A DNA stretch of 64,000 nt. It comes from Bythopirellula goksoeyrii (GTDB taxonomy: Bacteria; Planctomycetota; Planctomycetia; Pirellulales; Lacipirellulaceae). The stretch spans positions 6,335,257 to 6,399,256 of the forward strand of contig NZ_CP042913.1 of assembly GCF_008065115.1 (NCBI RefSeq), read 5' to 3'. Both the position numbers and the translations under genes were made by a program. Below are positions 11,075-31,069 of the stretch, one piece after another (the first letter of the stretch is position 1; each line of letters opens with the position of its first letter). Below the pieces are notes generated by a model that saw only the letters and a program-made list of their open reading frames with translations, made no database searches and was not told where the DNA came from.

Positions 11075-11187
11075 TCTTCTATTTATCCATTGAGTGCCGT
11101 GATTTGTCAAAGTTGGTAAGGCTAAGCAGGTCTGCAAACCTTCACACTTCATTGTACTCCGGTTTCTAAGGTCGGGAAATACTCTTC

Positions 11188-11208
11188 GCGACCAACGGTC
11201 GCGGCTTT
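11188..11208 (-). repeat. Single REP hairpin (family A) after rseP
   Basis: GCGACC-AAC-GGTCGC forms a 6-bp hairpin followed by GGCTTT, the reverse orientation of the AAAGCCGC-type REP found around the RAYT gene at 17012. It lies 5 nt past the rseP stop. Confidence 0.75.
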
Positions 11209-14870: not shown

Positions 14871-16940
14871 ATGGACGATTCTCCCAACCAATCCAAAGGT
14901 TCCTCCGATAAGAAGCCAAATCCACAGTCAGGCAATCTGGTCTGGTATGTCCTGGGACTAATGGCTTTGTTGCTGCTCCTGGGTACATTGTGGGGCGGGC
15001 AAAATCGACTCACCATCAAATGGAGTGATCTCGAACGGCTTATCGTCAAAAGCGACGAACCTCAGGAAAACTGGATCAATGTTGAAGACACCACGACAAC
15101 TCCTCCCCGCACGCTCAAACTCTACGGCCTATCCGACATAAAAATCGGCAACACCGAAGTGACCGGCAACGTGATGGCGGAGGTACTCACTGGAGGACCA
15201 CCCGCCGACAAATCTGATTCGGCCGATGATGAATTAGCTGCCAAAGGGCCCAAGTCCTACGCATTTAGGACCAACCGACTGCCCAATGAGCAAATGCTGC
15301 TCACACTGCTACACGATCATGGCCTCGAGCACACGATGGCCGAATCGCCAAGCCCATTCCTCAGCTACCTGCCGATGCTCACCTTCACGGGTCTCTTGAT
15401 TCTGTTGATGGTCGTCATGATGCGACGCATGGGAGGGGCAGGTTCGCCGATGGCTTTCGGACGGAGTCGAGCCAAGCTCTATGTGCAGGAAGATATCGAA
15501 GTCACGTTCGACGATGTGGCCGGAGTCGATGAAGCCGTCGACGAGCTGCGCGAAGTGGTCGATTTTCTCAAGAATCCGGAACGTTATCAACAACTTGGCG
15601 GTCGCATTCCTAAAGGTGTGTTGCTCGTAGGCCCACCAGGTACTGGCAAGACGTTGCTGGCCAAAGCGGTAGCCGGCGAAGCGGGCGTATCGTTCTTCAG
15701 TCTAAGCGGTAGCGACTTTGTGGAAATGTTCGTCGGCGTAGGAGCAGCCCGAGTTAGGGACATGTTCAGCCAAGCTGAACAACGTGCTCCGTGTATCATC
15801 TTCATCGACGAACTCGATGCCCTCGGCAAGACTCGTGGCAGTGGACAAATTGGTGGCCATGACGAACGCGAGCAAACCCTCAATGCACTGCTGGTAGAAA
15901 TGGACGGCTTCGGCTCGAACAGCGGCGTCATTGTGATGGCCGCTACCAATCGCCCTGAAACATTAGACCCCGCACTTTTGCGACCCGGTCGATTTGATCG
16001 ACATGTGTTGGTTGATCGTCCCGATGTCTCAGGTAGGGAAGAAATTCTTGAAGTCCACTTGGTGAACATCAAAGTTGCCGATGATGTGAAAGTCAAAGAG
16101 GTCGCTGCGATCACGAGCGGCTTTGTCGGTGCCGATCTAGCAAACGTTGTCAATGAAGCGGCCCTCTTGGCTGCCCGCAAAGGAAAGAAAGCCGTCACTC
16201 GCACCGATTTCCTCGAAGCCGTCGAACGTGCCAGTATTGGCTTGGAGAAGAAAAGCCGCATCATCCATGATGAAGAAAAGATTCGTCTGGCTTACCATGA
16301 GGCCGGACATGCGTTGGTGGCCTTTTCACTGCCGAATACGGACCCCGTGCATAAAGTCTCGATCATCCCACGTGGCCTGAGTGCGCTCGGTTATATGCAG
16401 CAACGCCCCGATCGCGACCGCTACATGATGACTCGTGGGCAACTCGAAAGCGGCATCCAGGTGGCACTCGCCGGCACGTTGGCCGAGGAATTGATTTTCG
16501 ACGAGGTCGCCACCGGTGCGAGCAACGATCTGGAGCGCGCCACCGAAATCGCGCGCAGCATGGTCATGGACTACGGCATGAGCCGACTAGGTCGAGTAAA
16601 CTATCGCGAAAACAATCGCAACCCGTTCCTCGCCACCGGCGCCGAGGGAGGCCGCATGGCAACCCACAGCGAACAAACAGCGCGCGAGATTGACCAAGAA
16701 GTCAAACGTCTCCTCGACGAATCGCTAGATCGAGCCCGAAGTATCCTGGAGAATCGTCGCGCGGCACTGGTCGCCATCAGTGAAGAATTGATGATTCAGG
16801 AAGTTATCGACGCGGAAGAACTCAAACGCATCGTCGAAGAAAACTCACCAAGCCCCATGATCGTCCCGGGTACCGATTCCGAGAATAAGCGCACGGCTAA
16901 AACAGGGGAGGCCAAAACCGATACCGCCACCGGTTCCTAA
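14871..16940 (+). CDS. ftsH: ATP-dependent zinc metalloprotease FtsH
   Basis: FtsH is a hexameric inner-membrane AAA+ protease that degrades membrane and short-lived regulatory proteins. The 689-residue product has two membrane helices (about 23-43 and 163-185) around a periplasmic domain that is longer than in E. coli. The AAA module shows Walker A GPPGTGKT near 253, Walker [11 protein letters not shown], and the second region of homology [21 protein letters not shown] (21 residues, ending in His). The protease zinc site is HEAGH near 476, with the third ligand region in the downstream [14 protein letters not shown]-like block. The tail is low-complexity. A REP doublet begins 1 nt after the stop. 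Confidence 0.97.
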
Positions 16941-16941
16941 T

Positions 16942-16997
16942 AAAGCCGCGACCGCCGGTCGCGCGTATGACAATTCGCCACCAGCGGTGGCGGCTTT
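16942..16997. repeat. REP doublet, family A copy 1
   Basis: It begins 1 nt after the ftsH stop and ends 14 nt before the RAYT start. The outer arms AAAGCCGCGACCGCCGGT and ACCAGCGGTGGCGGCTTT (18 nt) pair with two mismatches. It is nearly identical to the copy at 17534. Confidence 0.85.
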
Positions 16998-17011
16998 ATG
17001 GAACAATCGTC

Positions 17012-17563
17012 ATGCCCAAAACCATCGGCTATCACATCGTATTATCGGGCCATGGTTTGTGGCTTCCCGGTGATGATCGGGGCCATTGGTCCGAAGCCTG
17101 GGACGCGGAGTTGGGACTCATCGAACCTCACACCTTGCACCCGGGCGACCCGGTCCGCAAGCGAATCGCTCAAGAACGAATGGTCCATCCACCGGTACGA
17201 TTGAGTACCGCTATGCAGAACAGCGTCATTACAAGATTCGCATCCTGTGCGGCGGATTCGGACTGGCAAATCGTCGCTGCGTCAATCGAATCGACCCATA
17301 CTCATTTATTGCTCACCTACACAGAGCGCAACATTGACAACACAGTCAAGTGGCTCAAGGATCAAACCACCAAAGCCATCCATCGAGAAACATCGCACCA
17401 GGGACCCGTGTGGTGCAAAGGCAAATGGCGGTCGTTTGTGTTCGAGTTGGACGTTTGGAACAACACCCTGCGCTACATCGAGCGACACAATGAACGCCGC
17501 GGCGTGAGCCCGCGACCCTATCCTTTTCTGGCACAAAGCCGCGACCGCCGGTCGCGCATATGA
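17012..17563 (+). CDS. REP-associated tyrosine transposase (RAYT, Y1/HUH family)
   Basis: RAYTs are single-copy relatives of IS200/IS605 transposases that nick REP hairpins with a tyrosine. The ATG at 17012 gives 183 residues (PKTIGYHIVLSGHGLWLPGD), preferred to 16967, which lies inside the repeat. Seen are the histidine pair in STHTHLLLTY, where the middle residue is Thr instead of a hydrophobic one, the helix DNTVKWLKDQTTKAI, and a C-terminal YIERHNERRG with the candidate catalytic Tyr. The last ten residues and the stop come from the downstream REP copy. It is a planctomycete-type branch, often annotated only as 'transposase'. Activity is not proven. Confidence 0.78.
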   Translation: MPKTIGYHIVLSGHGLWLPGDDRGHWSEAWDAELGLIEPHTLHPGDPVRKRIAQERMVHPPVRLSTAMQNSVITRFASCAADSDWQIVAASIESTHTHLLLTYTERNIDNTVKWLKDQTTKAIHRETSHQGPVWCKGKWRSFVFELDVWNNTLRYIERHNERRGVSPRPYPFLAQSRDRRSRI

Positions 17564-17590
17564 CAATTCGCCACCAGCGGTGGCGGCTTT
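17534..17590. repeat. REP doublet, family A copy 2
   Basis: It is nearly identical to copy 1, with about one base changed in the spacer. It supplies the last codons and TGA stop of the RAYT gene and ends 14 nt before the ATG of the next membrane protein gene. Confidence 0.85.
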
Positions 17591-17604: not shown

Positions 17605-17970
17605 ATGAAAATGCCAAGTATCGAAGACTGCGGACCTGTGCTCATTGGCACCGGCTTGGCCGTCGTCCTGGCCGCACAACTTTGGCCCGGCATCCCCATT
17701 GCAGCGGCGATTGCGCTGATCGGTTGCGGGGCGACGTATGTTTCGCACAAAGCCGCGACCGCTGGTCTCGCTGATTCATTGCGCCACCAGCGGTGGCGGC
17801 TTTGTGGCTCATTGCTAGTCTACGGAGCGTTGGTGGGATTGGCCGTAGGTGCTGAATTGGATCTGCGCTTTAATACAATCTTCGTCGCCGATGCCTTGCT
17901 GGCCCTCTTGCTGCTGCTCAGCGCGGTTCAGAGTGTGTTTCACCGCACGGATTCTTCTTCCACTTGGTAG
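17605..17970 (+). CDS. Small membrane protein with a REP doublet inserted in frame
   Basis: The 121-residue product starts at the ATG at 17605 (a second ATG is two codons on). Membrane segments are GPVLIGTGLAVVLAAQLW, IAAAIALIGCGATYV, LLVYGALVGLAVGA and FVADALLALLLLLSAVQ. Between the second and third lies a hydrophilic loop of about 20 residues encoded by a complete family A REP doublet (17746-17806), read in frame without a stop. No function is known. The 3' end overlaps the convergent gene by 31 nt. The gene directly follows the RAYT module, so it may have been hit by that element. Confidence 0.68.
   Translation: MKMPSIEDCGPVLIGTGLAVVLAAQLWPGIPIAAAIALIGCGATYVSHKAATAGLADSLRHQRWRLCGSLLVYGALVGLAVGAELDLRFNTIFVADALLALLLLLSAVQSVFHRTDSSSTW
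17746..17806. repeat. REP doublet, family A copy 3, inside a coding sequence
   Basis: The arms CACAAAGCCGC-G-ACCGCTGGT and ACCAGCGGT-G-GCGGCTTTGTG pair over about 21 nt with one mismatch. The spacer differs from copies 1 and 2. It lies wholly within the membrane protein gene 17605-17970 and keeps the frame. Confidence 0.85.
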
Positions 17971-22950: not shown

Positions 22951-23475
22951 TCACTCTTCAAACAACGTCGCTCGCTGCCTAGCAATATAAGCAAACGCAT
23001 TATTAAGATACGAATTATCATGGATCGCAATATTCGATCCTTCATCTGCCCACCAGGATTCTCCCTGTTTCAGAGGCCATCGCTCGCTCAAAGCTTGCCC
23101 CACCCAGCGCTTGACCAGACGACGAACCTTCTCGCCATGGATTTCTTTTCTTATGTCACATAAGAGATGCACATGATCTGCCCCACCAGCGCAGATGCGA
23201 TAGCTCCAACCGCCTCGTACACAGATTGCGGGTAGCTGCACCTCAACAAACTTGCGTTGTTCAAGAGTGAAATAGCGCGGTGGAAATTTCATCTTCTCTC
23301 GCTCGAATTGCTTGCGTCGAGGGGAAGCTGCAACGAAGTCCTCACCCGGTTGATTGTACTGCTTGTCGACCGTGGGCCGGTCATCGCCATGAAGACGTGC
23401 GCCGTAGGTGCCAAAAGTGATGTGCCAACTGGTACGAGTAGAGTCGAGGGTTTGATGCGGGTAGACGAGGGGCAC
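22951..23475 (-). CDS. REP-associated tyrosine transposase (RAYT, Y1/HUH family), second type
   Basis: This is a second, unrelated RAYT-like protein of about 174 residues. The GTG at 23475 with AAGG 8-12 nt upstream gives PLVYPHQTLDSTRTSWHITF; a GTG at 23484 is also possible, and the frame is open into the upstream palindrome. Seen are the strand SWHITFGTYGARLHGD typical of Y1 transposases, the HUH motif in GGADHVHLLCDI, the helix GEKVRRLVKRWVGQAL, and the C-terminal DNSYLNNAFAYIARQRAT with the candidate catalytic Tyr. It probably processes the family B palindromes on both sides. It is convergent with nothing and sits downstream of ribBA. Confidence 0.82.
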   Translation of the reverse strand: MPLVYPHQTLDSTRTSWHITFGTYGARLHGDDRPTVDKQYNQPGEDFVAASPRRKQFEREKMKFPPRYFTLEQRKFVEVQLPAICVRGGWSYRICAGGADHVHLLCDIRKEIHGEKVRRLVKRWVGQALSERWPLKQGESWWADEGSNIAIHDNSYLNNAFAYIARQRATLFEE

Positions 23476-26907: not shown

Positions 26908-26920
26908 AAAGCCGCGACCC
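26908..26920 (+). repeat. Truncated REP (family A) supplying sequence up to a GTG start
   Basis: AAAGCCGCGACCC matches the first half of the REP and runs directly into the GTG start of the CBS gene at 26921. Confidence 0.6.
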
Positions 26921-30939: not shown

Positions 30940-30960
30940 AAAGCCGCGACCGCTGGTCAC
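30940..30960 (+). repeat. Single REP (family A) after the kor operon
   Basis: AAAGCCGC followed by GACCGCTGGTC, a single REP unit 17 nt after the second CBS gene. It could act as a 3'-end RNA structure. Confidence 0.75.
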
Positions 30961-31069
30961 ACGGATTGGATTTGCAGTGAAGCTATTCCAACTCTTGCCA
31001 GGCACGAAAAGTCGTATCTTTAACGTCGTTAGAACGTCCTGTGGTAGTGGGACTAAAGATTTCGGATTT

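Follow-up and report, generated by a model that had tools for sequence, protein, structure and literature searches.

A planctomycete Y1 transposase gene flanked by inverted palindromes with an AAAG foot: a probable REPtron

The DNA considered here, a stretch of 64,000 nucleotides referred to as the window, comes from a planctomycete genome designated G000 and carries what is most probably (we would put it at about 85%) a REPtron: a single-copy RAYT gene, encoding a TnpAREP-like Y1 HUH transposase, with REPINs of its own on either side that it probably spreads, and belonging to a clade with an AAAG foot and a His as putative metal ligand. The transposase would, most likely, recognise REPINs as single-stranded hairpins, cut them and rejoin them, so that new copies appear elsewhere in the genome. 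At the hairpin base it would read the foot AAAG(C) in place of GTAG; as a guide AAAG would, by analogy with positions A3 and G4 of GTAG, select CT sites. Its third metal ligand would be the His four residues beyond the catalytic Tyr (Tyr+4), where other enzymes have Gln or Asn. We infer that the protein is active, cuts these REPs and moves them; the anatomy of the locus, the dispersal of its palindromes in the genome, their association with the gene across the clade, the stability of the foot while stems change, and the absence of the cassette from the corresponding place in relatives were observed directly. The features of the window, with strand where one applies, are these.

11186-11208, minus strand: solitary REP unit, 2 mismatches to the pattern
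14871-16940, plus strand: ftsH, the upstream neighbour, an ORF with matches 67-81% identical in eight relatives' loci
16942-16997: REP doublet 1 (a REPIN), upstream of the transposase gene; hairpin z -4.6 and -5.3
16942-16964 (plus) and 16975-16997 (minus): the two units of doublet 1, inverted, AAAGC feet outward
17012-17563, plus strand: RAYT-type Y1 transposase gene, 183 aa, starting MPKTIGYH..., with its TGA stop in the spacer of doublet 2
17297-17305, plus strand: codons H96-T97-H98, the HxH motif
17474-17488, plus strand: codons running from the catalytic Tyr, Y155, to H159, the putative third metal ligand
17534-17536, plus strand: CAA codon at the position of the usual clade stop, TAA
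17535-17590: REP doublet 2 (a REPIN), downstream of the RAYT gene and overlapping its 3' end; hairpin z -3.3
17605-17970, plus strand: membrane-protein-like ORF, 121 aa, containing doublet 3; 10 further genomes of the genus have relatives of it
17749-17803: REP doublet 3 (a REPIN), inside the preceding ORF and in frame with it; hairpin z -7.4
26908-26919, plus strand: half REP unit, its first 12 nt, AAAGCCGCGACC, without the second arm, from direct reading of the sequence
30940-30962, plus strand: solitary REP unit, 1 mismatch to the pattern

The first-pass annotation had described two doublets in the same orientation on the two sides of a RAYT-like gene, and they are real: the two are 98% identical over 60 nt, lie 593 nt apart, are each made of inverted units and have an intact Y1 transposase gene between them. 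Each doublet comprises two inverted units whose consensus, with small departures, is AAAGCCGC(G/C)ACCnnnGGT(C/G)GC, and each would form one long DNA hairpin (z from -3.3 to -7.4, four strands being folded). The plus-strand unit of doublet 1 begins one base after the stop codon of ftsH. With up to 3 mismatches allowed, the window has 8 matches to the unit AAAGCCGCNACCGCNGGTNNCGC; 100 shuffles gave 0.03 on average. Solitary units had also been listed at 11188, 26908 and 30940; the first (from 11186) and the third are whole, and at 26908, where no unit is called at 3 mismatches, there is a half unit. Doublet 3, absent from that list, was found on re-analysis. Is it a clean insertion into the ORF around it, itself without a Pfam match? 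This is unsupported, as the ORF is merely 6-8 aa longer than its doublet-free relatives and one of the doublet's units is kept at the equivalent place in another genome, G011. Outside the window the pattern is dispersed, with 21 units at no more than 1 mismatch in the whole of G000 and none for a reversed-pattern control, and the genome has a single copy of the clade gene plus distant Y1 paralogues. One distant Y1-like ORF, with an HVH motif and E 0.006 to the window transposase, is in the window itself (22969-23430, minus strand; G000:6358225-6358686). That the whole is a REP-RAYT system, as had been proposed, is supported by the Y1 transposase between doublets, the ~20 dispersed units and AAAGC palindromes at all 17 related genes inspected.

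The window protein matches Pfam Y1_Tnp (E 3.5e-7, 30.8 bits; gathering cut-off 23), and scores 34.5 bits, below the curated cut-off of 80, with NCBIfam REP_Tyr_transpos (NF047646), a model matched by 14 of 14 clade members with E of at most 0.001. For its predicted structure (pLDDT 81, poor for residues 18-26) Foldseek ranks IS608, ISDra2 and TnpAREP (4er8) near the top, at E 2e-4 to 1e-3 and with modest TM of 0.40-0.47 by query length; a PDB search with the sequence gave nothing significant (best E 0.47). A quick tree built from 44 sequences, of which the clade supplied 15, divides the clade from the rest at a branch with SH-aLRT 100. An alignment of 14 members, the window protein included and its relatives being 52-73% identical, has H98 and Y155 invariant and H96 in 13 of 14. 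Values of dN/dS from 0.08 to 0.19 were obtained for 4 of 9 clade pairs, all with dS above 1, the other 5 giving no value. Damaged clade genes also occur: those of G022 and G036 are frameshifted, L058 has H96 changed to R, and L192 is broken.

The first-pass annotation pointed to the HTH in place of the usual motif with a hydrophobic middle, and suggested that the chemistry might be altered, for which the presence of Thr rather than a bulky hydrophobic residue between the two His is the argument. The more extreme version, that the enzyme no longer cuts DNA, we consider very improbable. Because the middle residue varies freely among relatives (T, I, S, A, M or L in the 14-member alignment), while H98 and Y155 never vary, the claim has to be given up, and HTH is found also in L165, whose Y1 gene is distant and has repeats of the GTAG type. 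The actual oddity, earlier unmentioned, is elsewhere. At Tyr+4 there is a His in all 14 aligned proteins and in five others that are readable there (L051, L115 and L190-L192), i.e., 19 of 19, and Y155 and H159 fall in the last long predicted helix, 146-162. The third metal ligand of known enzymes lies about 4 residues past the Tyr, being Gln131 in IS608 and Asn119 in E. coli (PMC6006769). H159 would then be the putative ligand here, though the Asn at Tyr+5 could serve instead.

The foot is the other distinguishing trait. AAAGC palindromes adjoin 17 of 17 clade genes examined. Exact criteria place them on both sides of 14; L057 needs one mismatch upstream, and for L115 and L116, with palindromes on one side, the contig end cuts off the other. 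Three clade loci found later, from two further families within the phylum, also have them (3/3). Beside other Y1 genes of the same genomes there were none at 32 loci, and with laxer criteria there were 5 matches in 41 other Y1 loci (137,052 bases, with repeat records of one gene included) versus 70 in the 17 clade loci (66,331 bases). As the scans searched for AAAGC itself, they establish that it is there and not that it is favoured over other feet; in the window, L050 and L062 the doublets came to light without use of that pattern. The foot is constant while stems diverge, with GCGACC, GGCGAT, GCCGGC, GCCGCC, GGGCAT and others, and the two clade genes of G075 differ in their REP stems. The 110 distinct unit contexts favour C or T at -3 and A or G at -2, immediately before the foot, and have no base preference further upstream than -3. 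In 11 of the 16 clade loci having a 3' end, the TAA stop shares its AA with the foot of the 3' REP (TAA-AGC), and this overlapping stop is also present in L190 and L191. In the window gene, CAA replaces TAA and the ORF extends 9 residues into doublet 2. From L061:3825 onward a C-terminal fragment, apparently of a second clade gene, lies behind the first among further AAAGC units.

Do the REPs go with the gene? That they would was the expectation of the first-pass annotation, which took it that the link would fail if the palindrome were equally frequent in genomes without the gene. In the family, clade genes (E 1e-30 or better) are present in 5 of 43 genomes (G000, G022, G027, G034 and G036). 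Among 396 genomes of the order, the gene is present in 11, the exact REP in 29 and both in 10, those ten having 14 to 268 copies each; one match in each of four genomes was the yield of the reversed control pattern. Of the 11 genomes with the gene, 10 thus have the exact REP, versus 19 of 385 without it (Fisher 9e-12, uncorrected for kinship), and therefore the link holds. The gene-bearing exception, G027, has no window-type REPs and 26 units with a stem type of its own; of the latter type G035 has 32 units and the remaining 41 family genomes have none. The tracking is strong but imperfect, for eight genomes without a detected clade gene carry 16 to 127 exact REPs each. REP-rich genomes with no detectable clade gene are G035 (despite its 32 units of G027 type), G038, G109, G115, G127, G225, G237, G319 and G373; several are drafts, and G109, G115 and G127 are 94-97% complete. 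A profile search for a hidden gene was run on those eight, on six other REP-positive gene-less genomes and on G035, and no clade gene emerged: the best E was 6e-19, while of the REP-negative controls in the same search 9 of 22 gave matches, at up to 6e-22. By profile the search covered 14 of the 19 REP-positive gene-less genomes as well as G035; it was by single protein for G011, and G055, G087, G124 and G130, with 1-2 REP copies each, were covered by the order-level protein search, in which at most 8 candidates were scored per genome. In the REP-rich genomes the gene may have been lost, may lie outside the assemblies, or may have been replaced by another enzyme, and their existence raises the question of how REPs persist.

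Might the REPs instead be kept by a host function, at transcription ends, mRNA ends, or gyrase or replication sites, or by other transposases, with the gene incidental? The hairpins are strong, doublet 1 is directly behind the ftsH stop, and the REP-rich genomes without the gene are what such an explanation would expect, but we regard it as unlikely. The palindromes at 17 of 17 clade genes and missing from 32 of 32 other Y1 loci tell against it, as does the changing of stems along with the gene. Pairing is relevant too: 40 of 94 units are in paired REPINs in three genomes with the gene versus 2 of 36 in four without it, and, when units at the gene itself are subtracted, 26 of 80 versus 2 of 36 (p 0.002, uncorrected for kinship and with G036, G038 and genomes of 1-3 units left out). 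Among the family genomes under comparison, only those with the gene have many pairs, though G373, which is without it, breaks the pattern with 8 of its first 10 listed units paired. As to whether REPs are strictly intergenic, the outcome was mixed and the proposition was dropped: in G000, 8 of 23 REPs lie within long ORFs versus 362 of 421 random points, which is avoidance; in other family genomes the avoidance is weaker (16/27 versus 423/493), and in the order sample it is absent (18/20 versus 301/363).

The history of the site also needs to be considered. In five relatives of the genus, ftsH is followed by the next gene after 126-208 nt, measured between aligned ends, and the interval is free of the cassette; in G000 it is 667 nt. 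These five are the ones with a short gap among ten relatives' loci compared (L091-L100). L094 has a gap of 807 nt with another Y1-like reading in it and L098 one of 1113 nt with other content; no ftsH was seen in the loci L091, L093 and L095. The gene position for L100 comes from the genus-relative comparison, tblastn not having listed it. In G022 the clade gene is at the same ftsH 3' end as in G000. This supports either arrival of the cassette in the lineage of G000 and G022, or its loss elsewhere. Other REP-like hairpins occur in the ftsH 3' intervals of L092 (GTAG-type by eye), L094 and L099, and the interval behind ftsH is a possible hot spot. Is the cassette, then, an ordinary IS200-like element which moves whole and of which the doublets are the ends? 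The similar doublets at both ends, the termination of the gene at the 3' doublet and the five cassette-free intervals accord with that, and yet it is quite unlikely, given one clade copy against 21 dispersed REP units in G000, the G022 gene being at the same ftsH 3' end, and the two-gene genomes, G157 and G075, having diverged copies, in G075 with differing stems. A REPtron spreading its own REPINs is the reading retained.

What is new in this? REPs and RAYT-type genes in Planctomycetes are already published (PMC3733652, PMC6006769). The system is a REP-RAYT of a kind known in the phylum, and its clade lacks the class 1, 2 and 3 signatures tested (Quentin et al. 2018). No published mention of the clade or of its AAAG foot was found in literature whose coverage stops short of most subscription journals, and the string AAAG is absent from the main texts of PMC3733652 and PMC6006769. 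The reading of a REP guide presumably has two parts, contacts with the protein and guidance of cleavage, and the tested examples in PMC8266576 are all GTAG. The AAAG clade, with TTAG and GTAG neighbours in related genomes, offers a natural series for the residues that read the foot, and the His at Tyr+4 a natural change of a putative metal ligand.

It is possible, if rather doubtful, that the clade amounts to a separate REPtron class, in which the guide switched from GTAG/TTAG to AAAG along with the WCKGKW stretch and three His, H96, H98 and H159, hold the metal. Relaxases have such a three-His metal site. One REPtron has two cleavage options, CT and CA (PMC8266576), and, were the separate-class reading true, these would collapse to CT because both inner guide bases of AAAG are A.

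How does the system compare with those known? Of the general features of REPtrons it has HxH and catalytic Tyr, inverted REP pairs flanking the gene, and dispersed REPs with a low-copy gene; cutting of single-stranded REP by the protein would be expected. With the class 2 TnpAREP/RAYT REPtrons of Quentin et al. (2018), to which E. coli rayT and its relatives belong, it has in common the single Y1 HUH gene, the inverted REP pairs, the dispersal of REPs in the genome and a foot directly at the hairpin base, and a REP of S. maltophilia is likewise a near-perfect palindrome with a 3-nt loop (PMC8266576). The class 2 foot, however, is GT[AG]G and here it is AAAG(C), and the class 2 Tyr motif Y---NP is here Y---HN (YIERHN, with His at Tyr+4 in 14 of 14). 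Residues W94, Q95, E100, H101 and R104, in the stretch of the E. coli protein that reads GTAG (PMC6006769), have as window counterparts, by W-W spacing and by eye, W134, C135, R140, S141 and F144. Nor do the doublets belong with the GTAG/CGTC REP super-families (Di Nocera 2013), which have an unpaired GTAG or CGTC at one end where these have AAAG. Still, AAAG retains the last two bases of GTAG, the two needed for cutting in one REPtron (PMC8266576), and set beside the TTAG and GTAG feet of neighbours it therefore looks like a variation within the GTAG theme. By eye, TTAG feet are seen at the other Y1 loci L011, L052, L055, L162, L164, L166, L168, L183 and L186, and a GTAG foot at L165, each of these genes having paired palindromes of its own.

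Class 3 TnpAY1, of Planctomycetes, Acidobacteria and Proteobacteria, shares with the clade a Planctomycetes host, an extended conserved N-terminal part, an atypical foot and REP-like structures around the gene; it has NHVH, W[TA], Y----Q and a CnGA foot (PMC6006769), whereas the clade has THxH, WCKGKW, Y---HN and AAAG, and is set apart by these published signatures. L173, with YVQRQQ and so of the Y----Q form, lies close to the clade in the 44-sequence quick tree. With TnpA of IS200/IS605 (IS608, ISDra2) the clade shares, by Foldseek at its modest scores, the fold and also the hairpin-foot logic, but not the class 1 motif Y---Q; it differs too in the single clade copy with dispersed REPs in G000 and, given Gln131 as third ligand in IS608 (PMC6006769), in the putative His. 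A neighbouring Y1 group of the same order and family (L052, L055, L166, L184 and L186) also has Y---HN, its feet being TTAG-type by eye in L052, L055, L166 and L186; the L052 and L055 proteins are 33% and 31% identical to that of the window.
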